This document shows, in pieces, positions 3,525 through 19,668 of a stretch of 52,709 bases of DNA. Position 1 is the stretch's first letter; each line of letters opens with the position of its first letter. The stretch comes from Caldilineaceae bacterium (GTDB lineage Bacteria > Chloroflexota > Anaerolineae > Caldilineales > Caldilineaceae): assembly GCA_026645575.1 (NCBI GenBank), contig JAPKMW010000081.1:1-52709 (forward strand), given 5' to 3'. Both the position numbers and the translations under genes were made by a program. A model generated the notes under the pieces. It searched no databases, was not told where the DNA came from, and saw only the letters and a list, made by a program, of their open reading frames with translations.

Positions 3525-5218
3525 CAGCGAGTATGGAACAGACGGATCTACCCTTCCCCAAGCAAAACATTGATCAGATCCAACAGGGCGGCAACGGGCT
3601 TACCCAAGAACAACTACCGCCACCATTGCAGGCTTTGGTCCAGGAACGCCCGTTTCTGCTGGAGTATTTGCAAGCGGTGCCGATTGCCGAGATCGGGATG
3701 CCGACCTATATCGCCAAATTGTCGCGCGCCTTGGGCAAAAGTAAAGCCCGTAACCTGATCTATCCGACGAATGACAAGGAGCTTTTTATTCATATCTATC
3801 CCGACCCCAAGGGCGCGCGCGATTGTTATATTCCCGTTGAGCCGCTCTTAACTGTGCCGCTCAACGGGCTGGTCAAGAAAGTCGAAGATAAATTGCTCGA
3901 TCTGGCTGAAAAGATTGGTCAGGCCACCGAAGAAGAGCGTAAAGAGGTTCTCCTCAATGCGCTTGATAGCATCTGTACAACAAACCCTGCTGAAAAGAAC
4001 AGCAAGATCCTGGTGACCGATCGCGAATTGGCGGCGCTCAAGTATCGCTTTGTGCGTGACAAATTAGGGCTAGGCGTTTTACAGCCCCTACTCGATGACC
4101 CCTATATTGAAGATATTAGTTGCAGCGGCTTGGGCAATATCTTTATTGAACACAAAATTTTCAAGAGTCTCAAAGCTTCGATCACCTTTCCTTCGCACGA
4201 AGACCTGGATGACTTTGTGATTCAGATGGGGGAGCGGATCAAAAAACCGGTGACGTTGCGCAACCCGATTGTCGATGCGACGCTGCCCGACGGCTCGCGT
4301 ATCAACATTGTCTATGGTCGAGATATTGCCAAACGGGGCAGCAACTTTACCATTCGCAAATTTAGCGACGATGTGATCAGTGTGTTGAACCTGATCGAAT
4401 TTGGCAGCATGGATTATCTCATTGCCGCCTACCTCTGGCTGGCGATTGAGTCGGATCTGAATGTCTTTGTGGTGGGCGCCACGGCCTCTGGTAAAACGAC
4501 CTTGCTCAACGCCCTCACCACCTTTATGAAGCCAAATGCCAAAATCGTGACCATTGAGGATACGCCGGAACTCCAAGTCCCCCATGCCAACTGGGTGCGC
4601 GAAGTGGTGCGCCAGATGAGCAAGGACAACAAAAGTGGCGGCGTCGATATGTTTGACCTGCTGAAAGCTGCATTACGCCAACGCCCCGACCGCATTCTCA
4701 TTGGTGAGATTCGTGGGGTGGAAGGCAATATCGCCTTTCAAGCCATGCAGACCGGTCACGGCGTGATGGCGACCTTTCACGCCTCTTCGGTGCAAAAGGT
4801 GATCCAACGCTTGACTGGTGAGCCGATCAATGTTCCCAAGGTGAATATCGATAACCTCGATCTGGTGGTGATTCAATCTGCCGTGCGCGCACCTGATGGC
4901 AGCACGGTGCGGCGGATCGTCAGCGTCAACGAAATTGTCGATTATGACTCAGCGTCCAATACCTTTTCCTTTATCACGGCCTTTCGCTGGCGCGCCGAAG
5001 ATGACACCTTTGAGTTTCCCGGCGATATGAACAGTTTTGTGCTGGAACAGAAGGTGGCCGCCAAACGGGGCGTGCCGGAGAGCAAACGGCGCTCGATCTA
5101 TGGCGATCTGCGCAAGCGCGCCGCCATCTTAGAGCGGATCCACAAAAAGGGAGGAGCGACGAGCTTTGACAAACTATTTGAAGTTATTGCAGAAGCTTAT
5201 AAACAAGGACTCCTTTAA
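3521..5218 (+). CDS. arlI: ArlI, type II/IV secretion-family motor ATPase of the archaellum
   Basis: A 565-residue hexameric motor ATPase that drives both assembly and rotation of the archaellum. After an N-terminal alpha/beta region (to about 190), visible motifs are the YIEDISCSG strand (195-203), Walker A GATASGKT (319-326), Asp box VTIEDTPEL (343-351), Walker B RILIGEIRG (391-399) and His box TGHGVMATFHA (411-421). Length and motif order fit archaeal ArlI/FlaI rather than PilB, which carries a tetracysteine zinc motif not seen here. The related archaeal GspE and TadA families remain possible from the ATPase alone; the ArlH and ArlJ neighbours decide it. It starts in the ATGA overlap with arlH and overlaps arlJ by 53 bp. 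Confidence 0.87.
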   Translation: MTASMEQTDLPFPKQNIDQIQQGGNGLTQEQLPPPLQALVQERPFLLEYLQAVPIAEIGMPTYIAKLSRALGKSKARNLIYPTNDKELFIHIYPDPKGARDCYIPVEPLLTVPLNGLVKKVEDKLLDLAEKIGQATEEERKEVLLNALDSICTTNPAEKNSKILVTDRELAALKYRFVRDKLGLGVLQPLLDDPYIEDISCSGLGNIFIEHKIFKSLKASITFPSHEDLDDFVIQMGERIKKPVTLRNPIVDATLPDGSRINIVYGRDIAKRGSNFTIRKFSDDVISVLNLIEFGSMDYLIAAYLWLAIESDLNVFVVGATASGKTTLLNALTTFMKPNAKIVTIEDTPELQVPHANWVREVVRQMSKDNKSGGVDMFDLLKAALRQRPDRILIGEIRGVEGNIAFQAMQTGHGVMATFHASSVQKVIQRLTGEPINVPKVNIDNLDLVVIQSAVRAPDGSTVRRIVSVNEIVDYDSASNTFSFITAFRWRAEDDTFEFPGDMNSFVLEQKVAAKRGVPESKRRSIYGDLRKRAAILERIHKKGGATSFDKLFEVIAEAYKQGLL

Positions 5219-6644
5219 AGAAGTCTCTAACTCAGAACTCTTTTACCAGCTCAGTTACATGTCGGCGGTCGCCGGCGCCGGCATTGCACGCAACCGCATC
5301 TTTGAGCTGGGCGCCAGCCTGCCGCGCATTCCCGCCGACTACTTTAAGCGGGTCCACCTGCTGGCGCAAAAGCTAGGCTATGACTATGCCGGCGCCTGCA
5401 CCAAGGTCGGGCTGGCGATCAAATCCGACGTGATGATCAGCTTGCTGTTGCGCCTGGGCAATGCGCTCACCGCCGGCCAACCCGAAGTCGATTTTTTGAC
5501 CGAAGAAGCGGCGGTGCAAGGGGAGGCATATGAAAAAGAGTATGAGCGCGATCTGGAATCGCTGACCAAATGGACCGATGCCTATGCCGCCGTCAATGTT
5601 TCGTCGGCGCTCATGATTGTCATCAACATGACGTCGTCGCTCATCTATGATATGGGCAACACCATCATCCTGGGGCTGGTAATCACCATGTTGACCATTG
5701 CCTCAGCCACGGCTTGGATCTTGTCGCGGGCCGCGCCCAAAGAGGTGATCGACCTCTTTTCACCCGATGGCACCTGGCCGCAGCGACTGGCCGGTCAACT
5801 AAGCGTTTACACCATTGCCGCCGTCTTTATTCTCTGTCCCCTGCTCATGGTGCTTGGCATGGCGGTGGGGCCAGTCTTGATCATTGCGGCCATCATGCTC
5901 TTCCCGCTGGGTGGGGTGAGTATGTTAGCCGGTCGCGAAATTGATAAAAAGGATCGCGAATTTGGCCCCTTTCTGCGCTCCTTAGGTGGTATGGCCGTCT
6001 CCACCGGCACCACCATTGGCGAAGCCTTAACCCGCGTTGATCTCAGTTCGTTCCCTACCCTGGAACGGGACTTAACCCGCTTGCGCAGCCGCCTGATCGC
6101 GGCGGTGGACCCTGAGCTATGTTGGCGCAAGTTTGCCCTGGAAACGGGCAGCAAGCTGATCGGCGAGACCATCACCATCTTTAACGATGCCGTCCGCTTA
6201 GGCGGTGATCCCGATACTGTCGCGTTTCTGGCCGCTGAATTTAGCACCAAAACCATTATGTTGCGCGCCAAGCGCCAGGTGGTCGCCTCCACCTTTTCCT
6301 GGCTGACGGTGGTGATGCACGGCACGATTGCCACCTTGATGGTGATCATTCTGGAGATTATTCGCAATTTCGTGGATCTGATCGATGCCGCCGCAGCGGC
6401 ACTAGGAGAAGGGTCTAGTCAGGCCGCGGCCATGGCCTTGCCGACCTTCAACGCCCCCCAAGTTGGTTTCTTCCAGGTGATTACCATCGCAATGGTCATC
6501 CTGCTGGCTGTCATCAATTCATACGCCATCATTGCCACCGACGGCGGTCATCTCTACAAGGCAGTCTTCTATTTGTCCATCTTATTAGTCATGGGGGGCA
6601 TTAGCTTTATCGTTGTCCCACCGCTGGTTGCGAGGATTCTATGA
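5166..6644 (+). CDS. arlJ: ArlJ, polytopic membrane platform of the archaellum
   Basis: A 492-residue inner-membrane platform protein with two T2SSF-type domains: cytoplasmic helices at about 20-130 (NSELFYQLSYMSAVAGAG start) and about 260-375 (GREIDKKDREFGPFLRSL start). Membrane segments are at about 143-190, 212-255, 378-402, 432-458 and 465-492. The large number of helices and length near 500 suit ArlJ better than PilC/GspF (about 400). The TTG at 5166 is preferred over the ATG at 5259 because GGGAGGAG lies about 9 bp upstream and the first domain would otherwise be clipped. It overlaps arlI by 53 bp and the next gene by 4 bp. Confidence 0.82.
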   Translation: MTNYLKLLQKLINKDSFKEVSNSELFYQLSYMSAVAGAGIARNRIFELGASLPRIPADYFKRVHLLAQKLGYDYAGACTKVGLAIKSDVMISLLLRLGNALTAGQPEVDFLTEEAAVQGEAYEKEYERDLESLTKWTDAYAAVNVSSALMIVINMTSSLIYDMGNTIILGLVITMLTIASATAWILSRAAPKEVIDLFSPDGTWPQRLAGQLSVYTIAAVFILCPLLMVLGMAVGPVLIIAAIMLFPLGGVSMLAGREIDKKDREFGPFLRSLGGMAVSTGTTIGEALTRVDLSSFPTLERDLTRLRSRLIAAVDPELCWRKFALETGSKLIGETITIFNDAVRLGGDPDTVAFLAAEFSTKTIMLRAKRQVVASTFSWLTVVMHGTIATLMVIILEIIRNFVDLIDAAAAALGEGSSQAAAMALPTFNAPQVGFFQVITIAMVILLAVINSYAIIATDGGHLYKAVFYLSILLVMGGISFIVVPPLVARIL

Positions 6645-7666
6645 TCGACATCATACCTGTCCCCTCCACCAACAAAGGCGCGCCGCGGCCGGTACTGACC
6701 CTCGTCCTGCTTGGTATGCTCCTGGTTGCGTTATTGCTGATTGCACAGTGGCTTTGGTTGACGCACACACTCAACCCACCGGCTGTACAACCTCTGCTGC
6801 CGGCGGAGCGTGCGCCCTTGCTTTCCGCACTCTTTCGACAGAACGCAATTGTTTGGAGTCTCATTGCCTCTGCCGTCAGCCTGGGGTTGGCGGTGGTGGC
6901 GGCGGTGACGCCTCTGCCTTGGTGGGTGCAACTAGCCACGCTACTTCAGCCGGCGCCTGGGGGAAAACCGCGTCGGCGGATACAATGGAGACAAGAGCCA
7001 CAAAGTGCGGAAGAGTGGGTCGCTGATCAGGCGGCGTTGCTGGGCGTACCGCCAACCGCGCTAGCACCAACCGCCCCAGCGGCTGTGCCACAACCCCGTC
7101 AGCCGGCGCCTGGTGCGTCGGTTGCCCCGGGACAACCACAGCCGGCGGTTACGCCGCAACCGACAGGCGTCACTCCACAAGGGACGGTTGCTGGTCAACC
7201 GACGCCGTTGCCAGCCGGCCAGCAACCGTCACCGGGCACCCCGCCACAGCCCCAACAACCGGGCGTTCCCGGCGCGCCGGGGCAGCCGCCGGCCCTGCCG
7301 CAACCTGGGCCAGGCCAGCAACCAGGTGTTCCCGCTGCACCAGGTACGGCGCCAAGTACAGAGCCAGGCGCGCCACAGCAACCAGCCGCCCAATCGGGCG
7401 CTGCCCAGCCGCCCAGCCAACCGGCGCCCAGCGCCCAGCCACCACAGCCAACGCTACAACAGATCTTGGCCGCCGAAGAAAAAGTCGATCTCAAGGAGTT
7501 GACCGACATTGGCGATATTTTGAACAGCTTCAAAGACAATGATGAGATACCGGCCCAACTGCTGGCGCTTAGTCAGAGTTTGCCGGATGTCGCGTTGATC
7601 GATCTGGTGGCTCACAGCCGCCGTATTGCCGCCGAATTGAGTGCTGCGAACGCAATGACGGCGTAA
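6641..7666 (+). CDS. Uncharacterised Pro/Gln-rich membrane protein in the arl operon
   Basis: I do not recognise a family. The 341-residue protein has two predicted membrane helices (about 19-41 and 68-91) joined by a short loop, then a basic patch, then a long low-complexity segment (about 120-268) of Pro, Gln, Ala and Gly with PGQP/PAPSAQP-like repeats. A compact acidic helical C-terminal domain follows (about 268-341, around EEKVDLKELTDIGDILNSF). The start is in an ATGA overlap with arlJ, so it is probably translated with the motor genes and acts with them. The disordered linker could carry the C-terminal domain away from the membrane, in the cytoplasm or through the envelope; the topology cannot be settled from sequence. 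Confidence 0.8.
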   Translation: MIDIIPVPSTNKGAPRPVLTLVLLGMLLVALLLIAQWLWLTHTLNPPAVQPLLPAERAPLLSALFRQNAIVWSLIASAVSLGLAVVAAVTPLPWWVQLATLLQPAPGGKPRRRIQWRQEPQSAEEWVADQAALLGVPPTALAPTAPAAVPQPRQPAPGASVAPGQPQPAVTPQPTGVTPQGTVAGQPTPLPAGQQPSPGTPPQPQQPGVPGAPGQPPALPQPGPGQQPGVPAAPGTAPSTEPGAPQQPAAQSGAAQPPSQPAPSAQPPQPTLQQILAAEEKVDLKELTDIGDILNSFKDNDEIPAQLLALSQSLPDVALIDLVAHSRRIAAELSAANAMTA

Positions 7667-7695
7667 GACATGGTATGCCATGTACAGGGAACTGC

Positions 7696-8487
7696 TTATG
7701 TTTCCGCGTGATATACATCTTCAATTGTGGCGTTGATCAACGCCACTGTTTCGGTAATGAGCGGGGCATGTTCGGGTTGGAGGGCGGGGCCAAGCAATTC
7801 CACAGTTGCGACATAGAGCTGTAACCCGGCGACCACCCGTTCGCGCAAGGAAGGGGGCCGGCCATCTACGTCGGCGACGCCAAAGGCAATGGCGCGCAAT
7901 TGACTCCACGCGGTTTCCGCACCGACCGCCGCCGCAACTTCGGTGAAAAAGCCATTATCACCAGAGATCAATACTCCGCGCTGGACTTTGACCACGTTAG
8001 ACAGGCCCCACGAAAGACCAAAGCTGGCGTTGAGTAACCGGCCAGGGTCACGCCGGCGTAACCCTTCTAGCCCCTTGTGTGCCTCTTCGATCCAGCCCAC
8101 CATCTGTTCACTGGCCCAGAGATCGGCCTTGTTTTGCAAGGCATCATCCCAAACAAAAGCATGGGCGCGGGCTTGGAGGGTGGCAAAGGTGTCGGCTCGG
8201 TCAATCAGCGTGCGCGCGATACGCAGGCCGGCTATCGTATTGGTGGCTTGCTCCGGATCGGTGAACCACTTTTCTACACGGCTGGGCGTCGCATTGCTCA
8301 CCACAACCAATACGTCATCCACCAGATGTGTGCCTACGCCATCCAGCGCGGCATTTTCCTCTGCAACAAAGCGCACCAGATCGACATCGCTGTAGGGGCC
8401 GGCGTCGCCCCGCGCATGGCTGCCCATGAGGACGAGCGCCTTCACAGCGGGTGCGTCAAACTGCTGGGCAAGCGTGATAAAGTCCAT
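7696..8487 (-). CDS. Nucleotidyltransferase-domain protein
   Basis: A 263-residue protein whose N-terminal third is a minimal nucleotidyltransferase fold: LMGSHARGDAGPYSDVDLV contains the GSxARG turn and the SDxDL metal-binding pair. The rest is helical, similar in layout to nucleotidyltransferases with a HEPN-like or kanamycin-type C-terminal domain. The substrate is unknown. The ATG at 8487 is chosen because GGGAG lies 9 bp upstream; the longer frame from 8607 has no supporting site and adds 40 residues outside the fold. It is convergent with the arl operon, separated by only 29 bp. Confidence 0.75.
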   Translation of the reverse strand: MDFITLAQQFDAPAVKALVLMGSHARGDAGPYSDVDLVRFVAEENAALDGVGTHLVDDVLVVVSNATPSRVEKWFTDPEQATNTIAGLRIARTLIDRADTFATLQARAHAFVWDDALQNKADLWASEQMVGWIEEAHKGLEGLRRRDPGRLLNASFGLSWGLSNVVKVQRGVLISGDNGFFTEVAAAVGAETAWSQLRAIAFGVADVDGRPPSLRERVVAGLQLYVATVELLGPALQPEHAPLITETVALINATIEDVYHAET

Positions 8488-8789
8488 CAGGTAAGCTCCC
8501 AATCGGATGAGAAGGAAGTATGAGAACGGATCGCTTGTCTTATTGTACGGTAGGTGGTAGGCGACCGCCAAAACGGCGCCGGTACGAGGGAGATGGGGCG
8601 GCGGCAAGCGCCGGTTGCCTGCGAGGCGCCTACAGGAAATGGCTCAAGCGGGACGTAGGGGTTTAACAGTCATCTTCTGGGAAGGTATGACCAGACAATC
8701 CTGTCGATCAGCGCGACCTTTCCGGAAGATTGGGCTGTCAACCCATTGGATTCCCGTTGACCCCAGGAAATCTATCGTTTGTCGTCAAA
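8488..8789. other. Intergenic stretch, no gene seen
   Basis: The region between the divergent nucleotidyltransferase gene and the peptide-cluster control region shows no supported open frame, no RNA gene I can recognise and no strong hairpin. It probably holds the upstream promoter of the minus-strand gene. Confidence 0.5.
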
Positions 8790-8857
8790 TTTAGTAGACA
8801 AATTGCCAAAAGTCTTAGAAAGCGCCCCTACATTTGCCCCTTGCGCCAGGGTACAAT
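8790..8857 (+). promoter_or_regulatory. Direct-repeat operator and promoter, peptide unit
   Basis: Two TAGA-centred repeats, TTTAGTAGACAAA (TAGA at 8795) and AGTCTTAGAAAGC (TAGA at 8816), are exactly 21 bp apart. A -10 hexamer TACAAT (8852-8857) begins exactly 36 bp after the second TAGA. No -35 hexamer is visible at the normal distance, as expected for an activator-dependent promoter. The same 21/36 geometry precedes the M50, thioredoxin and HlyD genes. It drives the three peptide genes starting at 8977. Confidence 0.7.
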
Positions 8858-8976
8858 AAGACCAACAGAGCGGACAGCAAAGAGCAAAGCAAACGAACAC
8901 AAATGAATGACTAGCTCAAAACTGACTGCTTCAATCATTAACTTCTGTAACAGTAACGAACGAAAGGAACCCAATC

Positions 8977-9129
8977 ATGTTGAACAAGAATGACTTCGCC
9001 CTGGAACAACTCGAACAACGTCTGGAAACATTGTGGATCTACGTCCCGTACCTGGCGACTTGTAGCAAGAAAGTTTGGTTCGTCACCATCTACTATCCTT
9101 GCCTCAAATGGCGCTGGATCTGGGTCTAA
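8977..9129 (+). CDS. Small two-cysteine aromatic peptide, copy 1
   Basis: A 50-residue peptide, too short for ordinary gene calling. Residues 1-19 form an amphipathic acidic leader-like helix (MLNKNDFALEQLEQRLETL). Residues 20-50 are extremely aromatic (Trp20, 34, 45, 47, 49; Tyr22, 25, 39, 40) and contain two cysteines, Cys29 in TCSKK and Cys42 in YYPC. GAAAGG lies 10 bp upstream of the ATG. The protein is identical to copy 3 although the genes differ at nine synonymous positions, so it is under selection. I infer a ribosomally made, processed and exported peptide with one disulfide, served by the protease, thioredoxin and exporter genes downstream. The activity (bacteriocin, signal or other) is unknown. 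Confidence 0.85.
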   Translation: MLNKNDFALEQLEQRLETLWIYVPYLATCSKKVWFVTIYYPCLKWRWIWV

Positions 9130-9195
9130 CCATCTACGCTAACCCATTACGTAACTAATAATTTCTACACATAATCTACACAAGGAGAGACAATC

Positions 9196-9348
9196 ATGTT
9201 GAACAAGAACGACTTTGCCCTGGAACAACTGGAACAGCGCCTGGAAACATTGTGGATCTACGTACCCTACGTCGCAACTTGCAGCAAGAAGGTTTTGTGG
9301 GTCACCATCTACTACCCCTGCATCAAATGGCGCTGGATCTGGGTCTAA
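9196..9348 (+). CDS. Small two-cysteine aromatic peptide, copy 2
   Basis: A 50-residue paralogue of the copies on either side. The leader (residues 1-25) is identical; differences are confined to the second half: L26V, W34L, F35W and L43I, all conservative, with W34/F35 changing to L/W. Cys29, Cys42, the YYPC turn and the KWRWIWV tail are unchanged. It follows the ribosome site AAGGAGAGACAATC, which is shared almost exactly with copy 3, so the repeated unit includes the translation signal. It is transcribed with copy 1 (66-bp gap). The antisense open frame over this gene has no supporting features. Confidence 0.85.
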   Translation: MLNKNDFALEQLEQRLETLWIYVPYVATCSKKVLWVTIYYPCIKWRWIWV

Positions 9349-9412
9349 TCGGCTAACGTAAGTTCGTAAATACACTCACTATCTATCTATTCATACACAA
9401 GGAGAGACAATT

Positions 9413-9565
9413 ATGTTGAACAAGAACGACTTTGCCCTGGAACAACTCGAACAGCGCCTGGAAACGTTGTGGATCTACGTACCATACCTGGCGACTTGCA
9501 GCAAGAAGGTTTGGTTCGTCACCATCTACTATCCTTGCCTCAAATGGCGCTGGATCTGGGTCTAA
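9413..9565 (+). CDS. Small two-cysteine aromatic peptide, copy 3
   Basis: A 50-residue peptide identical in sequence to copy 1. Codons differ at nine places, all silent (for example AAT/AAC at residue 5, TTC/TTT at 7, TGT/TGC at Cys29), and there is no amino-acid change, which argues strongly for a real, constrained coding sequence. The site AAGGAGAGACAATT precedes the ATG. It is the last gene of the unit; two hairpins with a T-run end the transcript at about 9689. Confidence 0.85.
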   Translation: MLNKNDFALEQLEQRLETLWIYVPYLATCSKKVWFVTIYYPCLKWRWIWV

Positions 9566-9618
9566 CCTGAGACAACAACTCGCAAAGGGGACTTGTGAAC
9601 GAGTTGAATCACCTATCG

Positions 9619-9689
9619 GTCTGCCGCTCCCCCCTGAGCGGCAGACACAAAAGAGGAACTTGCATCACGCAGGTTCCTCTTTTGTTTTT
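9619..9689 (+). terminator. Double-hairpin terminator after the peptide genes
   Basis: The first hairpin is GTCTGCCGCT (9619-9628) with AGCGGCAGAC (9637-9646). The second is AAAAGAGGAAC (9649-9659) with GTTCCTCTTTT (9673-9683), followed by GTTTTTG. The second is a strong intrinsic terminator and separates the peptide unit from the M50 unit. Confidence 0.85.
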
Positions 9690-9704
9690 GTGACCAGATT
9701 ACCC

Positions 9705-9760
9705 GCTCATAGCCGGTCCGTGACCGGCGTTGGGGCGCCGGTCACGGACCGGCTATGAGC
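9705..9760. repeat. Dispersed GC-rich palindrome, copy 1
   Basis: Two perfect 25-bp arms (9705-9729 and 9736-9760) with a 6-bp loop; the core is TAGCCGGTCCGTGACCGGCG. The same core, with different outer bases, recurs at 16322-16378. It lies between the peptide terminator and the M50 promoter. Confidence 0.85.
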
Positions 9761-9785
9761 GTGCTGTCTATCAGTAATCCGTCAA

Positions 9786-9853
9786 ACCGTTAGAGAAAGC
9801 GCCTGTTTTGATAGATTGTCGGTGTCGATTGCAGGTAAGGGAAAGGCTATACT
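9786..9853 (+). promoter_or_regulatory. Direct-repeat operator and promoter, M50 protease unit
   Basis: ACCGTTAGAGAAA (TAGA at 9791) and TTTGATAGATTG (TAGA at 9812) are 21 bp apart. TATACT (9848-9853) begins 36 bp after the second TAGA. The layout is identical to the other three units. The first repeat resembles a LytTR-type site (ACCGTTA), but the family of the regulator is only a suggestion. Confidence 0.75.
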
Positions 9854-9894
9854 TGGCCGTAGAAACGAATCACCAATTCAGAAGGAGTCTACCG

Positions 9895-11202
9895 ATGTCA
9901 CTAAGCCTCACCACCCAACTTGAACTCAACGCCGGCGCCCAGATCGTGGCGTTTGATAGCAGCACCCAAGGCAAAACCTATCGCGTCGAATTGACCGACG
10001 GTCGTCATTTTCAGGTGAATGAAAAGCTGTACCACCTGTTGGATGCCCTGCACACCGCCATGACCCTGCCCGACCTGGCCGCTGCTGTTCAGCAGCGCAC
10101 CGGTCAAACCGTGGCGCTGGATCAGTTGCAACAACTGGGCGCCCAATTGCTGGAGCAAGGTGTGGTGACGGAGAGCGGTAAGACCCCCGTGGCGACACCG
10201 ACCGACAACGGCTCGACTTCGTACTTGGGGCTGCACTACCGCAAGGATCTTCTCTCCCCGCAAACGTTGGCGCCGCTGGCCCGCTTATTGCAAGTCTGTT
10301 TTTATAAGGGACCCGCCGTCGTTTTGACAACCCTGATCGCCGGCGCCCACCTGTTGGCCTACCGAGAGATGGGCTTCCCGCCTAACATCGATATGACCAC
10401 GGTTTCCTGGCCGCTGCTCTACGGTGTGATTCTGGTCAGCATCTTCTTTCATGAACTGGGCCATCTGGCCGCCTGTCACCGCTGGGGATCACCCCATGGG
10501 CCGTTGGGCTTTGGCCTCTACTTCTTCAACCCGGTCTTTTATGTCGATGTGACGGCGGCGTGGCGGCTCAATCGCTTGCAACGAGCGGTGGTCGATGCCG
10601 GCGGGATCTACATTCAGTTGCTCTTTGCCCCACTCTGTCTGCTGCTCTTCTGGGCGACGCAAGACCCAACCTACCTGCTGGCAATTATGGTCATCGACCT
10701 GATTCTGATTGGCAACCTGGAACCCTTTATGAAGCTCGACGGCTACTGGCTGCTCTCGGACCTGACCGGTGTACCGAATCTCCATGCTCGCACCGGCGAA
10801 GCGGCGAAACGCATGTGGGGTTGGCTGTTGTGGCGCTTGGGCCGTCGCTCGGTTGCCCCGGCGACCACAGCCTTTAGTCAATGGGCCGGTTGGGTGCGGG
10901 TGGTCATCTTCACCTACATTGCGCTCTCAATTGCCCTGTGGCCGGTGCTGCTTGTCGCCATGTTGCCCTTGATGATCGACGCCTTCATGAGCTACCCGGC
11001 ACTCTGGCAAGGGGCGATGAGCGCCCTGGTTGAAGCAGGCGCAGCGGGGGATGCTGGCGCTATCGTCACCCAACTCAACGTCCTCTTCCTGCCGACCTTG
11101 ACCCTGCTCAACACGGCCTTCCTGCTCAAGATCGCCTGGAACCGCCGGCGGCAGAACCAAAAAGTTGCCGCTGCCCAACCCATGCAGATGCAACCGGCGT
11201 AA
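9895..11202 (+). CDS. Membrane zinc metalloprotease (M50) with N-terminal PqqD-like domain
   Basis: A 435-residue membrane protein. Residues 10-92 look like a PqqD-type RiPP-recognition element (beta strands, then helices around VNEKLYHLLDALH and LDQLQQLGAQLLEQGVV). A loop precedes membrane helices at about 137-158 and 172-193. The zinc motif HELGH is at 186-190, and the second M50 motif NLEPFMKLDGYWLLSD is at 274-289 with its Asp ligand. More helices follow at 240-272, 330-365 and 400-425. Family members accompany small peptides as processing proteases; here the leader of the 50-residue peptides is the likely substrate. The ATG at 9895 follows GAAGGAG; the longer frame from 9808 would include the -10 hexamer. 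It forms its own transcription unit. Confidence 0.85.
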   Translation: MSLSLTTQLELNAGAQIVAFDSSTQGKTYRVELTDGRHFQVNEKLYHLLDALHTAMTLPDLAAAVQQRTGQTVALDQLQQLGAQLLEQGVVTESGKTPVATPTDNGSTSYLGLHYRKDLLSPQTLAPLARLLQVCFYKGPAVVLTTLIAGAHLLAYREMGFPPNIDMTTVSWPLLYGVILVSIFFHELGHLAACHRWGSPHGPLGFGLYFFNPVFYVDVTAAWRLNRLQRAVVDAGGIYIQLLFAPLCLLLFWATQDPTYLLAIMVIDLILIGNLEPFMKLDGYWLLSDLTGVPNLHARTGEAAKRMWGWLLWRLGRRSVAPATTAFSQWAGWVRVVIFTYIALSIALWPVLLVAMLPLMIDAFMSYPALWQGAMSALVEAGAAGDAGAIVTQLNVLFLPTLTLLNTAFLLKIAWNRRRQNQKVAAAQPMQMQPA

Positions 11203-11235
11203 GTCAGTGGTAGTGAATGAATTCGACCCCTTTGA

Positions 11236-11285
11236 TGTACCAGCCAAACCTGCTTGCCCCAGGTTTGGCTGGTACATTTTTCTTT
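11236..11285 (+). terminator. Intrinsic terminator of the M50 unit
   Basis: TGTACCAGCCAAACCTG (11236-11252) pairs perfectly with CAGGTTTGGCTGGTACA (11260-11276). TTTTTCTTTTTC follows at once. Confidence 0.9.
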
Positions 11286-11305
11286 TTCTATGACGGCGCT
11301 GATAA

Positions 11306-11373
11306 AACGATAGAAATTTCGTTTATTTTCGTAGAAAACGGCTGTGGTTTTTGGCGGCGGCGCGTCCTATAAT
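11306..11373 (+). promoter_or_regulatory. Direct-repeat operator and promoter, thioredoxin-ABC unit
   Basis: AACGATAGAAATTT (TAGA at 11311) and TTTCGTAGAAAACG (TAGA at 11332) are 21 bp apart. A consensus TATAAT (11368-11373) starts 36 bp after the second TAGA. It matches the other three control regions and lies between the M50 terminator and the ATG at 11424. Confidence 0.75.
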
Positions 11374-11423
11374 GAAGTCATCAAAACAACCTGTGTAACC
11401 AACTTCGCTAGGAGATAAAGACC

Positions 11424-12026
11424 ATGATGAACTCAACACTCAACAATAACGCCGTTTTCAATCCCACGGTTAACAAACCATCGCTGACCAAGCGCATCGT
11501 CAAGATTATCGGCGTCATCATCGCAATCAGCATCTTACTGGTGGCTGCCTCCGCCATTCTCGCCACCTATGTGTGGAATGGCCTGGATGCAGGGCAACCG
11601 GCGCCGGCCATTCGCGCTTACGACCTCAATGGCAAGCCGATCAGCCTGGAGCAATATGCTGGCAAGCCGGTGATGTTGACCTTCTGGTCGCCCGACTGTG
11701 GCGCCTGTCGCGAAGAGTTGCCGGCGCTCCAAACCATCGCCGCCGACCCCAACGCCGAAGTCACGCTGGTGACAGTGGTTAGCAAGATGCCGGCAGCGGA
11801 TGTGCAACAATTTGTGACGGAAGCGGGCTTGACCTTCCCGGTGATTGTCGATGAAACGGGCCAAATTGCCCAGGATTATGAGATCACCGGCGTCCCGGTC
11901 AGCTATTTTATCAACCCCGACGGCCAGATCGACCACAGCATCATCGGCGCCGGCGGCGAAGGCGATTTACAAAACAATCTCTTTGCCTGGTTAAGCACTT
12001 GTAGCGTCGAAGAGGTGTGCAAGTAG
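11424..12026 (+). CDS. Membrane-anchored TlpA-like thioredoxin-fold protein
   Basis: A 200-residue protein with an N-terminal membrane anchor (about 25-52) and an extracytoplasmic AlkC-TSA/thioredoxin domain. The active site is FWSPDCGACREELPAL, with C-G-A-C at the start of the first helix, and the cis-Pro region is GVPVSYFINPDG. It is predicted to form, break or shuffle disulfides outside the membrane. In this cluster the obvious client is the Cys29-Cys42 pair of the small peptides. Two further cysteines lie at the C-terminus (TCSVEEVCK). The ATG has AGGAGATAAAGACC upstream. It is the first gene of an operon with the ABC ATPase and permease. Confidence 0.85.
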   Translation: MMNSTLNNNAVFNPTVNKPSLTKRIVKIIGVIIAISILLVAASAILATYVWNGLDAGQPAPAIRAYDLNGKPISLEQYAGKPVMLTFWSPDCGACREELPALQTIAADPNAEVTLVTVVSKMPAADVQQFVTEAGLTFPVIVDETGQIAQDYEITGVPVSYFINPDGQIDHSIIGAGGEGDLQNNLFAWLSTCSVEEVCK

Positions 12027-12028
12027 CG

Positions 12029-12087
12029 AGTGGCGAGTGGCGAGTGGCAACAACGATGCCGTCCCGTAGGGACGCTTGAATTTAGGA
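12029..12087. repeat. Short tandem word and half-copy of a dispersed repeat
   Basis: The word CGAGTGG occurs three times in a row from 12029. It is followed by one arm of the GTCCCGTAGGGAC repeat family (12061-12084, continuing into GCTTGAATTTAGG). The full two-armed versions are at 14253 and 37501. Confidence 0.7.
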
Positions 12088-12095
12088 GAGCAATC

Positions 12096-12905
12096 ATGAG
12101 TGGTTTGGTGATACCGCAGCGCAATTTGTACAAAAATGGTCAGGTGAATGGGCATGTGAATGGTCAGGTGAATGGTCAACTCAACGGCGCTCACCAGCGG
12201 GTGCGACCGGCGGTCTCTCGCCAACCGGTCATTGAGATCAGCGAAATGAGCAAGAGCTACCAGATGGGTGGTACAGCCGTTCATGCGCTGCGCGGTGTTT
12301 CCTTGACCATCGGCAGCGGCGAATATGTCGCCATTATCGGCGCTAGCGGGTCGGGCAAAAGCACCTTGATGAACATGATCGGCCTGCTTGACCGCCCGAC
12401 CACCGGCAGCTACCGGTTGCGCAACACCGAAGTGAGCCAGATGAGCAAGGCCGAATTAGCCACAGTGCGCAATCGGGAGATCGGCTTCATCTTCCAGCGC
12501 TTCCACCTGCTCCCCCGCACCAGCGCCCAGCGCCAGGTCGAGTTGCCGCTCTTCTACGCCGGTGTGCCGGCCCGCAACGCCGCCAAGATGGCGTTGGAAG
12601 CGCTCACCCGTGTCGGCCTGGGCGAACGGGCGCACCACCGTCCCGATGAACTCTCCGGCGGTCAGCAACAGCGGGTCGCCATCGCCCGTGCCCTGGTCAA
12701 CCGTCCCAGCCTGTTGCTGGCCGACGAACCGACCGGCGCCCTGGACTCGAAGACGGGCGAAGATGTGTTGCGCATCTTCAAGCAACTGCACGAGGGAGGC
12801 ATGACCATCGTCGTCGTCACCCACGACATGAGTGTCGCCAAGCGGGCGGAACGGACTGTCACCTTGAGTGACGGCAAGATCATTAAAGACGAATATAATA
12901 ATTAG
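12096..12905 (+). CDS. MacB/LolD-type ABC transporter ATP-binding protein
   Basis: A 269-residue ATPase of the MacB/LolD/FtsE type that powers mechanotransmission exporters rather than transport through a pore. Motifs are Walker A GASGSGKST, signature LSGGQQQRVAIA and Walker B LLLADEPTGALD, followed by THDMSVAKRAER. The N-terminus carries an unusual 40-residue extension with NGQVNGHVNGQVNGQLNG-type repeats before the domain begins at VIEISEMSKSY. The ATG at 12096 follows AGGAGAGCAATC; an upstream in-frame ATG at 12030 lies in repeat sequence. It works with the FtsX-like permease next to it and probably with the HlyD-like adaptor. Confidence 0.9.
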   Translation: MSGLVIPQRNLYKNGQVNGHVNGQVNGQLNGAHQRVRPAVSRQPVIEISEMSKSYQMGGTAVHALRGVSLTIGSGEYVAIIGASGSGKSTLMNMIGLLDRPTTGSYRLRNTEVSQMSKAELATVRNREIGFIFQRFHLLPRTSAQRQVELPLFYAGVPARNAAKMALEALTRVGLGERAHHRPDELSGGQQQRVAIARALVNRPSLLLADEPTGALDSKTGEDVLRIFKQLHEGGMTIVVVTHDMSVAKRAERTVTLSDGKIIKDEYNN

Positions 12906-12997
12906 TGGTCAACGGATAACGGTTACTTGTTAATCGGCAAGGGTTGCCCAATCTCTCTAATCTCTCAATCTCTGAATCTCTAGTGACGAGGTGTACG

Positions 12998-14221
12998 ATG
13001 AAAGCATTACGATACGCAAACGTGGCCTGGGAAAGCATCGCCGCCAATAAGATGCGTTCGCTCTTGACGATGTTGGGCTTGATTATCGGGGTCGCCTCGG
13101 TGTTGACCACCATCGGCATTGGTCGGGGCGCAGCGGTTGGCGTCACTCAAGAGATTGAAGGGCAGGGCATCAACACCCTGGTGATCTCCCCCAAAATGGA
13201 AAACATCACCGATAGCAGTTCGCTCACCTCTGGCGATGCTCGTGTGTTGGCCGATCCGCAGTTGCACCCGGAGATTGTCGCCGTGGCTTCGACCAATTCC
13301 GCCTTTCTGCGGGTGATCAATGGCGATGCCGCGATTGAAAGCCAGGTAACAGGCGCCACCGCCAACTATGCCGACGTGAAGAATCTCAAAGTGGCCCAAG
13401 GGCGCTTCTTCACGCCGGAAGAAGAAGCGAATCAACACCGAGTAGTCGTCCTATCGAGCATTGCCGCTACTGACCTCTTCAAGGGCGCCGATCCGATCGG
13501 TCAAAGCGTGCGCATTAACAACGAACCCTTTACGGTGGTCGGCGTCTTGAAGAAGAGCGGCGGCGATGACAGTGAATCGTACTTCCGCCCCATGTACACC
13601 CCGCTGGGCGTGGCCCAAAACCGGCTGATCAAAGCGGAACGCTATCGCGGCGAATATGTGGTTTCGGAAATTATGGTGCAGGTGGCCGATCGGGAATTGC
13701 TCAAATATGCCGAAAGCCAGGTGGAACAGACACTGCGCTTGCGCCATGATTTGGACGCCGGCCAGAAGAATGACTTTCACATTCTCAACCAAGCCCGCTT
13801 GCTAGAGATCGCCGGCAGCGTTGCCAATATGATGACGGCCCTGCTCGGCAGCATCGGCACAGTGAGCTTGTTGGTCGGTGGCATTGGCATCATGAACATC
13901 ATGCTCGTCTCCGTCACCGAACGCACCAGCGAGATCGGCCTGCGCAAAGCATTGGGCGCCCAAGATGGGGACATCCTGTTACAATTCTTGATTGAGGCCA
14001 TGGTTCTCTGTGCCTTTGGCAGCCTCATCGGCATCGGCTTGAGCTACAGCGTCAGCGTCTTGCTTAATGGCATCCCTGAATTTCCCTTTGACATTGTCCT
14101 CGAAGCGCCGGCCCTTTTCCTGGCTCTGGGCGTCGGGTTGTTCAGCGGCTTTGTCTTCGGCCTCTACCCCGCCATCCGCGCCACCCGTCTCGACCCAATT
14201 GAGGCGCTGCGGTATGAGTAA
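12998..14221 (+). CDS. MacB-like ABC transporter permease (FtsX family)
   Basis: A 407-residue permease with the MacB topology: one N-terminal helix (about 20-45, starting at [19 protein letters not shown]), a large extracytoplasmic MacB_PCD domain (to about 275) and three C-terminal helices (about 285-310, 335-360, 372-398) containing the FtsX signature [27 protein letters not shown]. The ATG at 12998 follows GACGAGGTG. The neighbouring ATPase and the distal HlyD-like gene make a MacAB-style export pump; peptides are plausible cargo given the cluster. The end of the operon is marked by the palindrome at 14253. Confidence 0.9.
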   Translation: [407 protein letters not shown]

Positions 14222-14252
14222 ATGATGATTTTTGTCAAAGAAGTCATCATAA

Positions 14253-14337
14253 AACCCGTCCCGTAGGGACGCATGAATTTAGAAGAGAGAACATCATTTT
14301 CTCCTCCCTAAACTCATGCGTCCCTACGGGACGGGTT
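14253..14337. repeat. Dispersed palindrome GTCCCGTAGGGAC family, full copy
   Basis: The 24-bp arm starting AACCCGTCCCGTAGGGACGC (14253-14276) is the reverse complement of 14314-14337. Both arms are bordered on the loop side by a TTTAG/CTAAA-type sequence. A second full copy is at 37501-37576 and a half copy at 12061. It could also terminate the permease transcript. Confidence 0.85.
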
Positions 14338-14491
14338 CACCGATCAACACTTTCTCGAAAATATTACAACTCAAACAGGTGATACGCCTCTCCTTTCTCG
14401 CTGCTTTCACCCTTGCTAATCTAAGCCCCTAAGTAACGACTGGCGCGCTCCTATCGTAGCGATCCTGTGTTACTCGATCCTGGCAATCACA

Positions 14492-14559
14492 ATTGATAGA
14501 AAACCACGACGAGTTGATAGAAAATTCCGTTCAATTGGGGGAGTAACTTCTGCTATCCT
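14492..14559 (+). promoter_or_regulatory. Direct-repeat operator and promoter, HlyD unit
   Basis: ATTGATAGAAAACC (TAGA at 14497) and GTTGATAGAAAATT (TAGA at 14518) are 21 bp apart. The hexamer TATCCT (14554-14559), preceded by TGC as an extended -10, begins 36 bp after the second TAGA. These are the two best-matched repeats of the family. The rest of the 14338-14605 gap shows nothing else. Confidence 0.75.
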
Positions 14560-14605
14560 TAGGGCAACAACAATCTGTACTACTGTAACTGTAGAGGAGC
14601 GCCTT

Positions 14606-16204
14606 ATGAGCAACCGCAAATTAATCGTCGCCGTTTTGGTCATTTTGAGTGTCATCGATCTGATCCTGTTGTGGACCGACGGCCCAGCCAAATCCGCTTC
14701 GCTCACCCCGGAGTATGCCGATACCGATATGCAACGACCGGAAAACCCGGATCCGTCGGCGCCCCAAAGCAGAACCGTGCGCATTCGCACCCCGGAATCG
14801 GTGATTGATGAACTCTCTGCCGCCGGCACAGTTGACCTCATTAGCAAGCGCCAGGTCGTCCTGGAAGTCGATGGCACCATCAGCCAGGTCAATGTCAAGG
14901 TGGGCGATTGGGTGGCGGCAGGTGATCTGCTCCTGGCGCTCGATACGGCGGAATTGCAACGTTCCGTGGCCCGCGCCGAGGTTGACGTGGCTTCTGCCGA
15001 AGCTGACTTGGTGAAACTGCAACAGGGCAGCGACCCCGGTGAAATTGCCGTAGCCGAAGCCAATCTGGCCGCTGCCAAGGAAAATCTGATCAAGGTACAA
15101 TCCGGCGCGGCGCCGGAAGAGATTGCTGCCGCCCAGGCCAAAGTGGCTGCCGCCCAGGCCAAATTGAATGGTCTCTTTGCCCCCCCCAGCAGTGGCGCAA
15201 TTGATGAAGCCAAAGCTGAACTCGCCAAAGCCGAGATTGCCCGCAAGGAAGCGCAACGGGCCTATGACCAAATTAAGTGGCGTAATGACATCGGTATGAC
15301 GCCGGAATCAGCGGCCTTGCAAAAAGCCACGGTCGATTTTGAACGGGCGCAAGGTAAATTCAACAGCCTCAACCAGCCATCTTCGGCCTCATCCGTGCAA
15401 GAAGCCAAGAGTGACGTACAGCGGGCCGTCAGCGACCTGCAAACCCTGCAAAATCGCCCCTCGGCAGTGGAAGTTGCCGAAGCCCAGGCCAAGGTGCAGG
15501 ATGCCGAGCAGAAACTGAACAAACTGAAGGCCGGCGCCTCTGGCCCTGACCTGTTGAGCGCCCAGGCTAAGGTGGAAAAAGCGGAGTTGGATCTGGAAGA
15601 AGCGCAGGCCAAATTGCAACGGGCGCAGATTGTGGCCCCCATCGAAGGCGCTGTTCTGGAAGTCAATGTCACCGCTGGGGAGCGGGGAACAGTGGGCAAG
15701 ACGGTTGTCACCCTGGCCGATGTCCGCCAACTGAAGTTGACCGTCAAGGTGGCCGAGGTTGATATTCCGCAGATTGTCCTAGGTCAGGAAGCCACCATCG
15801 CCATCGACGCTATCCGCGGCCGCACCTTTACCGGCATCGTCGAGCAGATCGACCCAATCAACAAGGCGGACAAAGATGTGGTCAACTATCCGGTGACGAT
15901 TCGCCTGACCGACGCCACACTGGATGGAGTGCGCCCTGGCATGAATGCCGTCGCCAACTTCCCCAACCAGCAGGCCAATGACCACCGCTGGCTTGTGCCG
16001 ACGACCGCCCTCCAGACTGCTGACAATCAGAGCTTTGTTCAGGTGGCACGCGGTGAAGGGTTCGCCCAGACCCCGGTGACGCCAGTGGAGAGCCAGGGCG
16101 AGTGGACGATTGTACAGTCAGAGGCGTTGCAGGCGGGTGATGAGGTGCTGGGTCAGGTCGCTTCGTATGTGAATGAGCAGCAGGATGTCCAAGTCTCGTA
16201 CTAA
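14606..16204 (+). CDS. HlyD/MacA-like periplasmic adaptor
   Basis: A 532-residue membrane-fusion-type adaptor. There is one N-terminal membrane helix (about 5-24), a lipoyl half-motif (VVLEVDGTISQVNVKVGDWV, about 87-106), and a very long alpha-helical hairpin (about 110-340) of Ala/Gln/Glu/Lys heptads with repeated AQAKV and EAQAKLQ words. A second lipoyl half starts at IVAPIEGAVLEVNVTAGERG, then beta-barrel and membrane-proximal domains. In a monoderm-like Chloroflexota cell it would extend the MacB-like pump outward rather than reach an outer-membrane channel. The ATG follows GAGGAGCGCCTT. It has its own copy of the shared promoter, so it is co-controlled with the peptide, protease and transporter units. 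Confidence 0.87.
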   Translation: MSNRKLIVAVLVILSVIDLILLWTDGPAKSASLTPEYADTDMQRPENPDPSAPQSRTVRIRTPESVIDELSAAGTVDLISKRQVVLEVDGTISQVNVKVGDWVAAGDLLLALDTAELQRSVARAEVDVASAEADLVKLQQGSDPGEIAVAEANLAAAKENLIKVQSGAAPEEIAAAQAKVAAAQAKLNGLFAPPSSGAIDEAKAELAKAEIARKEAQRAYDQIKWRNDIGMTPESAALQKATVDFERAQGKFNSLNQPSSASSVQEAKSDVQRAVSDLQTLQNRPSAVEVAEAQAKVQDAEQKLNKLKAGASGPDLLSAQAKVEKAELDLEEAQAKLQRAQIVAPIEGAVLEVNVTAGERGTVGKTVVTLADVRQLKLTVKVAEVDIPQIVLGQEATIAIDAIRGRTFTGIVEQIDPINKADKDVVNYPVTIRLTDATLDGVRPGMNAVANFPNQQANDHRWLVPTTALQTADNQSFVQVARGEGFAQTPVTPVESQGEWTIVQSEALQAGDEVLGQVASYVNEQQDVQVSY

Positions 16205-16484: not shown

Positions 16485-19413
<2,929 letters not shown>

Positions 19414-19668
19414 GATGCGTCTCCTCGAAATGGAAATAATCCTTGACAGAAAAGTCGGCGTTGGCAAAGGTCAACAGCGCCGAGCCTTTTCTGAAGTACA
19501 ACAAACAGATGATAGCAACAACCCAGGGGTAAGTTCTCACAGGTAAAATTGGCAATAAACTATCAAGCCAACATGAACACGGTCATGTCCGCATGATGAC
19601 AATGAAATCAATTAAAGCCTGTGATGTTTTATACAGTAGACGACTAGCGAGAGAAAAAGACGCGTTCG

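Follow-up and report, generated by a model that had tools for sequence, protein, structure and literature searches.

The closest described relatives of the system reported here are found among three kinds of bacterial peptide loci. In the available portion of the report on daptides (PMC10036551), the leader is removed by an RRE-dependent intramembrane peptidase, MpaP/DapP, and the product is formed on a C-terminal Thr. The epe locus (epeXEPAB) is described, in the excerpts to hand of two reports (PMC12871923, PMC10885120), as holding together the genes of a small precursor, the M50 protease EpeP/YydH and an ABC transporter. The skf locus of the sporulation killing factor, to the extent covered by the accessible part of PMC8172795, encodes a putative protease SkfC, a putative thioredoxin SkfH and the export/resistance proteins SkfE/F, and its product contains a disulfide together with a radical SAM (SkfB) thioether and is head-to-tail cyclic.

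We have analysed a window of 52,709 nucleotides from a Caldilineaceae bacterium, carrying a peptide locus that shares features with each of these. Two further groups are relevant for comparison. Protegrin, tachyplesin and arenicin are animal beta-hairpin antimicrobials, cationic and aromatic, with cross-strand cystines, and in the prochlorosins one maturation protein, a lanthipeptide synthetase, is shared by several precursors, some of them encoded far away.

Like the daptide systems, the window encodes a peptidase of intramembrane type with a predicted RRE fusion, and the daptide protease equivalog (NF041824) is the best NCBIfam match of this M50 protein, but the score is 110 bits where 300 are required. 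The scanned ORFs yielded no DUF-RRE, dehydrogenase, aminotransferase or methyltransferase, Pfam recognising no homologue of MpaB, MpaC, MpaD or MpaM among 25 of the 45 window ORFs of at least 110 aa, and Thr occupies position 50 in 0 of 102 aligned peptides. The epe arrangement of small precursor, M50 and ABC transporter genes recurs here, as far as the cited excerpts describe it, whereas the scanned ORFs contain no radical SAM epimerase, the YydH/LiaK epipeptide protease model (NF058609) scores 53 against a cut-off of 225 bits, and a predicted cysteine hairpin, a thioredoxin gene and an HlyD-type gene stand on the window side. Protease, thioredoxin and export genes and a disulfide in the product, here a predicted one, are also what the excerpted skf description has in common with our locus, which differs in that no radical SAM protein was recognised in the scanned window ORFs. 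The animal hairpins would work alike, as cationic aromatic hairpins with cross-strand cystines, but the window peptides are bacterial, are predicted to lose a leader to an RRE-M50 protease, have longer strands and show Trp/Trp in place of one cystine; compared with prochlorosins, the shared protein here would be a protease. The parts are of known kinds. The initial annotation named no described family with this peptide. The general kind of system is already on record, in the RRE-dependent intramembrane peptidase of daptides and the M50 protein EpeP of epipeptides (excerpts of PMC10036551, PMC10885120). The combination, the peptide family, the exchange of cystine for tryptophan and the scattered precursors were not met with in the literature searched.

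Gene organisation of the locus

The plus-strand locus comprises three 50-aa ORFs followed by genes for an M50 protein, a thioredoxin-fold protein, a MacB-type ATPase, a permease and an HlyD-type adaptor (Table 1). The possible −10 element upstream of the peptides was not reported by the promoter consensus scan; TACAAT/TATACT-like elements were also seen by eye upstream of five stand-alone peptide genes in a second genome (G001, see below). The terminator scan returned 11 sites against 8.6 expected (sd 2.9), and while the two hairpins in the locus have 17 and 19 pairs, the remaining sites have six or fewer. A similar hairpin sequence with a T run lies at 8103-8135 of a second locus (L001), in the equivalent place between peptides and M50 gene. 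Since such hairpins follow both the peptides and the M50 gene, the locus may form three transcripts instead of one.

Table 1. Features of the locus and its flanks, in window coordinates.
Feature	Position	Strand	Remarks
Nucleotidyltransferase-like gene (flank)	7699-8607	-	
TACAAT, possible -10 element of peptide transcript	8852..8857	+	read by eye in sequence
Precursor peptide 1, 50 aa, W-type	8977..9129	+	ORF list, homologues; leader ~1-18, core ~19-50 (putative boundary)
Precursor peptide 2, 50 aa, W-type	9196..9348	+	ORF list; four residues different
Precursor peptide 3, 50 aa	9413..9565	+	ORF list; protein identical to peptide 1
Intrinsic-terminator-like hairpin, peptides/protease gene	9647..9685	+	17 pairs, T run
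Perfect inverted repeat upstream of protease gene	9704..9761	.	sequence scan; 26 bp, 6-nt loop
RRE-like domain (residues ~1-100) fused to M50 site-2-type protease	9895..11202	+	HELGH 186-190, LDG 281-283
Intrinsic-terminator-like hairpin, protease/thioredoxin genes	11234..11278	+	19 pairs
ResA/TlpA-like thioredoxin-fold protein	11424..12026	+	hydrophobic N-terminal stretch, C92-G-A-C95, C-terminal C193-x5-C199
MacB/LolD-type ABC ATPase	12096..12905	+	ORF open from 12030; ATG 12096 likelier start by judgement
MacB-type permease (MacB_PCD + FtsX)	12998..14221	+	start taken from comparison to G001; frame open from 12944
HlyD/RND-type membrane fusion protein	14606..16204	+	
Ribonucleotide reductase (other flank)	16488-19467	-	

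The peptide family and its predicted fold

Each of the three peptide ORFs is preceded by a ribosome-binding-like AAGGA. The second copy is 92% identical to the other two, and genes 1 and 3 differ at 9 nucleotides, every one of these changes being silent; the dN/dS ratio is 0.064 between genes 1 and 2 and 0.148 between 2 and 3, and ranges from 0.009 to 0.119 across three pairs of the L001 peptide genes. The silent differences and low dN/dS identify the ORFs as genuine coding genes under purifying selection and not chance ORFs. A single sequence search gave 15 related proteins, and a search with a 19-row profile gave 104 matches at E ≤ 0.01 among 202 candidates; 102 distinct rows entered the coupling analysis (MI-APC). 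The named taxa of both peptide and M50 relatives are Caldilineaceae, Chloroflexi or Chloroflexota. A profile search of PDB sequences with the family gave no relative at E ≤ 10.

The initial annotation had described three peptides with two invariant cysteines and proposed a Cys29-Cys42 disulfide. The peptides are real and each carries Cys29 and Cys42 (C-x12-C), a pair kept in 101 of the 102 rows, but the two-cysteine form proved to be the family minority and the pair only a part of the pattern. Positions 20 and 49 are C/C (the L001 form) in 81 rows, W/W (the window form) in 20 and W/L in one, and three rows (P0164, P0207, P0209) have C32/C37 as well.

The strongest coupled pairs are 30-39, 20-49, 32-37 and 34-35, for all of which i+j=69. 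Mean MI-APC is 0.113 in this register and 0.038 in the next; the chance of four top pairs falling in one preset register among 1128 pairs would be about 3e-8, a figure that ignores common descent and a register that was not preset. The same four pairs come out on top after clustering at 90% and 80%, and at 70% (28 rows) 20-49 and 30-39 rank first and third while 32-37 falls outside the top eight. The nearly constant occurrence of positions 20 and 49 as both Cys or both Trp makes a hairpin fold of the peptides likely, with 20-49, 30-39 and 32-37 probably facing each other across a single antiparallel hairpin. The AlphaFold2 model, with a leader helix at 4-17, strands at 20-33 and 36-49 and a turn in agreement with register 69, supports this. 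A two-residue turn would place these three pairs at non-hydrogen-bonded sites, which are the hairpin sites preferred by both cystines and Trp pairs. The coupling of 20-49 and of 32-37 falls in the register that nested cross-strand disulfides of a cystine ladder would have, and C29/C42 lies two positions off it, so that its cysteines would have to be joined over a bulge or diagonally, or else pair differently. Two independent switches at 20/49 are supported on the trees, and in both position 49 follows position 20 in nearly every draw; 5 to 12 switches lie on unsupported branches. No more than two are supported, and no significance can be claimed for the switching.

The protease and the leader motif

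For the M50 gene the likeliest start is ATG 9895, which has AGAAGGAG upstream and where many aligned homologues begin. By the same two features a start at TTG 9808 is less likely. The protein contains HExxH and LDG motifs within a membrane-helix body, as in site-2-type proteases. Its Pfam M50 match is below the cut-off (14.2 versus 27.2 bits), as are those to the two NCBIfam RiPP-protease models named above. The PqqD-like N-terminus proposed in the initial annotation gave no PqqD match in the Pfam scan and is visible only in the predicted structure, where an RRE-like fold does sit on a site-2-protease-like body. Together with precursors that have a conserved leader and a variable core, this domain is what would be expected of an RRE-dependent RiPP; the core modification that belongs to such a system would be the disulfides predicted from the coupled positions.

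The peptide leader has a conserved E-Q-L-E-x-R-L motif, in line with the leader first proposed. A pattern formulated after the family had been seen, [LIVM]E[EQ]L[DE]xRL, was matched by 10 of the 867 small ORFs that follow a ribosome-binding-like site in 33 regions around RRE-M50 genes, including the G001 locus, and by none in 200 shuffles. Three of the four peptides at the G001 locus carry it. The motif-bearing ORFs fall in five regions, upstream of the M50 gene and on its strand, with differing cores, and in the four other than G001 the M50 neighbours are radical SAM (L052), squalene-hopene-cyclase-like (L058, L070) or YcaO/ThiF (L082) genes. The motif is missing from 28 of the 33 regions, and the small ORFs of L060, L061 and L073 share another leader, E-L-P-x-R-E or -H. 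An ATPase match is present in six of the 33; no match to the window thioredoxin, permease or adaptor was obtained at E ≤ 1e-4 in these regions, several of which are short, C346 ending before those genes.

Thioredoxin-like protein and pump

The thioredoxin-fold protein matches AhpC-TSA/Redoxin in Pfam and is of the ResA/StoA kind. It had been grouped with the protease from gene position, and the grouping gains support from at least two proteins (P0113 and P0116) in which RRE-M50 and thioredoxin are fused in one chain, among the 120 listed of 197 M50 relatives at E ≤ 1e-10. Its C-terminal cysteine pair is C-x5-C in the window and G001 proteins and C-x3-C and C-x2-C in the fusions, and is absent from all four complete C-termini among five other G001 thioredoxin matches. 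The pump genes match ABC_tran, MacB_PCD + FtsX and HlyD_3 in Pfam, so that a MacB periplasmic core with FtsX permease, an ATPase and an HlyD/RND adaptor, the components of a MacAB-type exporter, are recognised by Pfam and NCBIfam as first annotated. ATPase and permease are separate genes and score 276 and 240 bits against the MacB equivalog cut-off of 966.

A second locus and scattered precursors

In the Chloroflexi MAG LacPavin_0920_WC57_MAG_53_11, locus L001 contains four peptides at 7245-8049 followed by an M50 gene (60% identity) that ends at the contig end. Another contig of this genome (G001), C15, opens partway through a thioredoxin gene, the final 39 residues of the protein matching the window one at 56%, and continues with genes for the ATPase (77%), the permease (75%) and the adaptor (58%). 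The two unjoined ends would fit one locus, and the downstream gene order of the window recurs in a second genome, although the assembly is interrupted there.

With the peptide profile, nine peptides were detected in G001. Four lie at the protease; the remaining five are spread over four further contigs, which gave no M50, thioredoxin or pump match at E ≤ 1e-3 in the stretches read (35,114 bases, including 14,000 of the 19,837 of one). Each of these five genes has, by eye, its own promoter-like element and terminator-like hairpin. As G001 has a single M50 match at E ≤ 1e-5, all nine precursors, some of them encoded elsewhere in the genome, probably depend on one protease. By locus tag, peptide and M50 lie near each other in three named records (U0X20_13945/13935, R3A44_01555/01545 and NT075_00190/00185, the last being L001), the R3A44 peptide (P0219) appearing frameshifted, and they are perhaps linked in two further records (6646 and 1984 bases), judged by size and source alone. 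Other long contigs, such as those of P0092, P0103 and P0108, have an M50 relative and no listed peptide. The initial annotation had expected the peptides beside homologues of the protease and pump genes, which is so only in part: five of the nine G001 peptides lie away from the protease, and some RRE-M50 proteases of ~30% identity are accompanied by different precursors or by none recognised.

Discussion

Taken together, the data favour, at a confidence well short of certainty, a RiPP-like system in which the RRE-M50 protein binds and cuts the leader, a hairpin core acquires disulfides, and the pump exports the product or protects the cell. In such a pathway the RRE domain would bind the leader helix with its conserved acidic E-Q-L-E-x-R-L motif, and the M50 site would cut near residue 18-19, a position suggested by charge change and conservation. 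The cut core would cross the membrane and likely adopt a single beta-hairpin, with cystines linking the two strands and, at the outer pair, two Trp as the alternative. The thioredoxin, outside the cell membrane, would oxidise or shuffle the core cysteines through its CxxC and C-terminal pair. Export of the product, its removal from the membrane or protection of the producer would fall to the MacB-type pump and the HlyD-type adaptor, and a single protease would serve several precursors, including genome-scattered ones. Disulfides are likely the sole modification: the annotated lack of a classic modifying enzyme was borne out in the scanned set (25 of the 45 window ORFs of at least 110 aa), where none was recognised, Radical_SAM giving no match in the five locus proteins or 20 further ORFs. 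It is tempting to go further and propose, tentatively, a new RiPP-like class of cystine-ladder beta-hairpins, with disulfide-only tailoring by an RRE-M50 protein and a dedicated thioredoxin with C-terminal cysteine relay, scattered precursors, and a repeated trade between the outer cystine and a cross-strand Trp-Trp pair.

The product is likely membrane-active, as an antimicrobial would be. The purifying selection along the whole peptide, the several near-identical copies, the stand-alone copies with promoter-like and terminator-like flanks (seen by eye) and the lack of a recognisable immunity gene in the scanned window ORFs (25 of 45) would also suit a signal or cell-surface peptide, an explanation that we consider rather unlikely. 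The core is cationic and aromatic and has no acidic residue in 101 of 102 peptides, and such acid-free cores resemble membrane-active hairpins. In addition, the ABC transporter beside the M50 gene of the epe locus gives self-immunity, according to the available part of PMC12871923, and a pump is found here too.

That same transporter makes the role of the pump uncertain, because EpeAB confers self-immunity (PMC12871923) and the M50 protein EpeP is thought both to cleave and to export, a view that is qualified in regard to deletion of epeP (PMC10885120; both as excerpted). The MacB-type pump might accordingly serve in resistance or general efflux while the protease itself releases the peptide, and the terminator-like hairpin between the M50 and thioredoxin-pump genes is in line with this. 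We hold it to be doubtful, however, as the HlyD-type adaptor accompanies the pump in both genomes and in the same order.

Further modification by an unlinked enzyme, for instance Trp/Tyr crosslinking, with the thioredoxin merely keeping cysteines reduced beforehand, is suggested by the radical SAM, YcaO/ThiF and squalene-cyclase-like genes in related RRE-M50 regions, by the aromatic core (mean 9.5 aromatic residues) and by the five G001 precursors away from the protease, which indicate that enzymes could be unlinked too; it appears improbable, since hairpin packing alone explains the C/C-W/W exchange at 20/49 and the scanned ORFs (25 of 45) hold no candidate gene. Metal binding by the cysteines, or an intermolecular dimer, would accommodate the out-of-register C29/C42 and a four-cysteine form compatible with a metal site, but is very improbable given that C29/C42 is kept when C20/C49 jointly become W/W and that C32/C37 are jointly present in three rows, joint exchange being what cross-strand pairs predict.

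If the RiPP-like reading with intramolecular cystines is correct, leader, protease, disulfide protein and pump would form an unusually simple gene-encoded way to stable bacterial hairpins, and some 100 natural peptide sequences are available for synthesis and testing. The family would be a natural experiment in which a disulfide and a pair of tryptophans replace each other at the same site of the structure, and, if the peptides do form a new class, the Trp-Trp pair would be nature's equivalent of designed tryptophan zippers. The leader, finally, would represent a code that is recognised by a family of proteases, other members of which adjoin radical SAM, YcaO and cyclase-like genes.

Features in the window and stand-alone peptide genes

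In the window, the ribonucleotide reductase barrel profile is split, with positions 1-211 falling in one ORF and 219-523 in the other across a gap of about 180 bases, and a frame break or an insertion may have divided the gene. Every stand-alone peptide gene on L092-L095, contig stretches of the second Chloroflexi genome (G001) away from the protease, has promoter-like and terminator-like flanks, as judged by eye.

Location of the features discussed
Feature	Region	Position	Strand	Remark
Inverted repeat, 26-bp, perfect, 6-nt loop	window	9704-9761		immediately upstream of M50 gene
Ribonucleotide reductase large subunit, two ORFs	window	16488-19467	-	profile match
Precursor-like ORF and neighbouring genes	L052	ORF start at reverse coordinate 1842; 5173-6600	-
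Squalene-hopene-cyclase-like gene	L058	1856-3964	-	PF13243 match
Squalene-hopene-cyclase-like gene	L070	3017-4828	+	PF13243 match
Stand-alone peptide-family genes	L092, L093, L094, L095			G001 contigs C525, C857, C241, C666

Precursor-like ORFs beside other RRE-M50 genes

Upstream of the RRE-M50 genes of regions L060, L061 and L073 lie small ORFs sharing a different leader, E-L-P-x-R-E/H, which precedes their tails. The L052 precursor-like ORF (118 aa, cysteine-rich, leader IEELDARLELE) is bracketed by a radical SAM gene and the RRE-M50 gene. An Rce1-like CAAX protease is also present in L070. Both there and in L058 the cyclase-like gene is flanked by small precursor-like ORFs with the leader VEELEERLEL on one side and by the RRE-M50 gene on the other, and these two regions possibly encode a kind of RiPP that has not been described so far, one whose enzyme has a cyclase fold.
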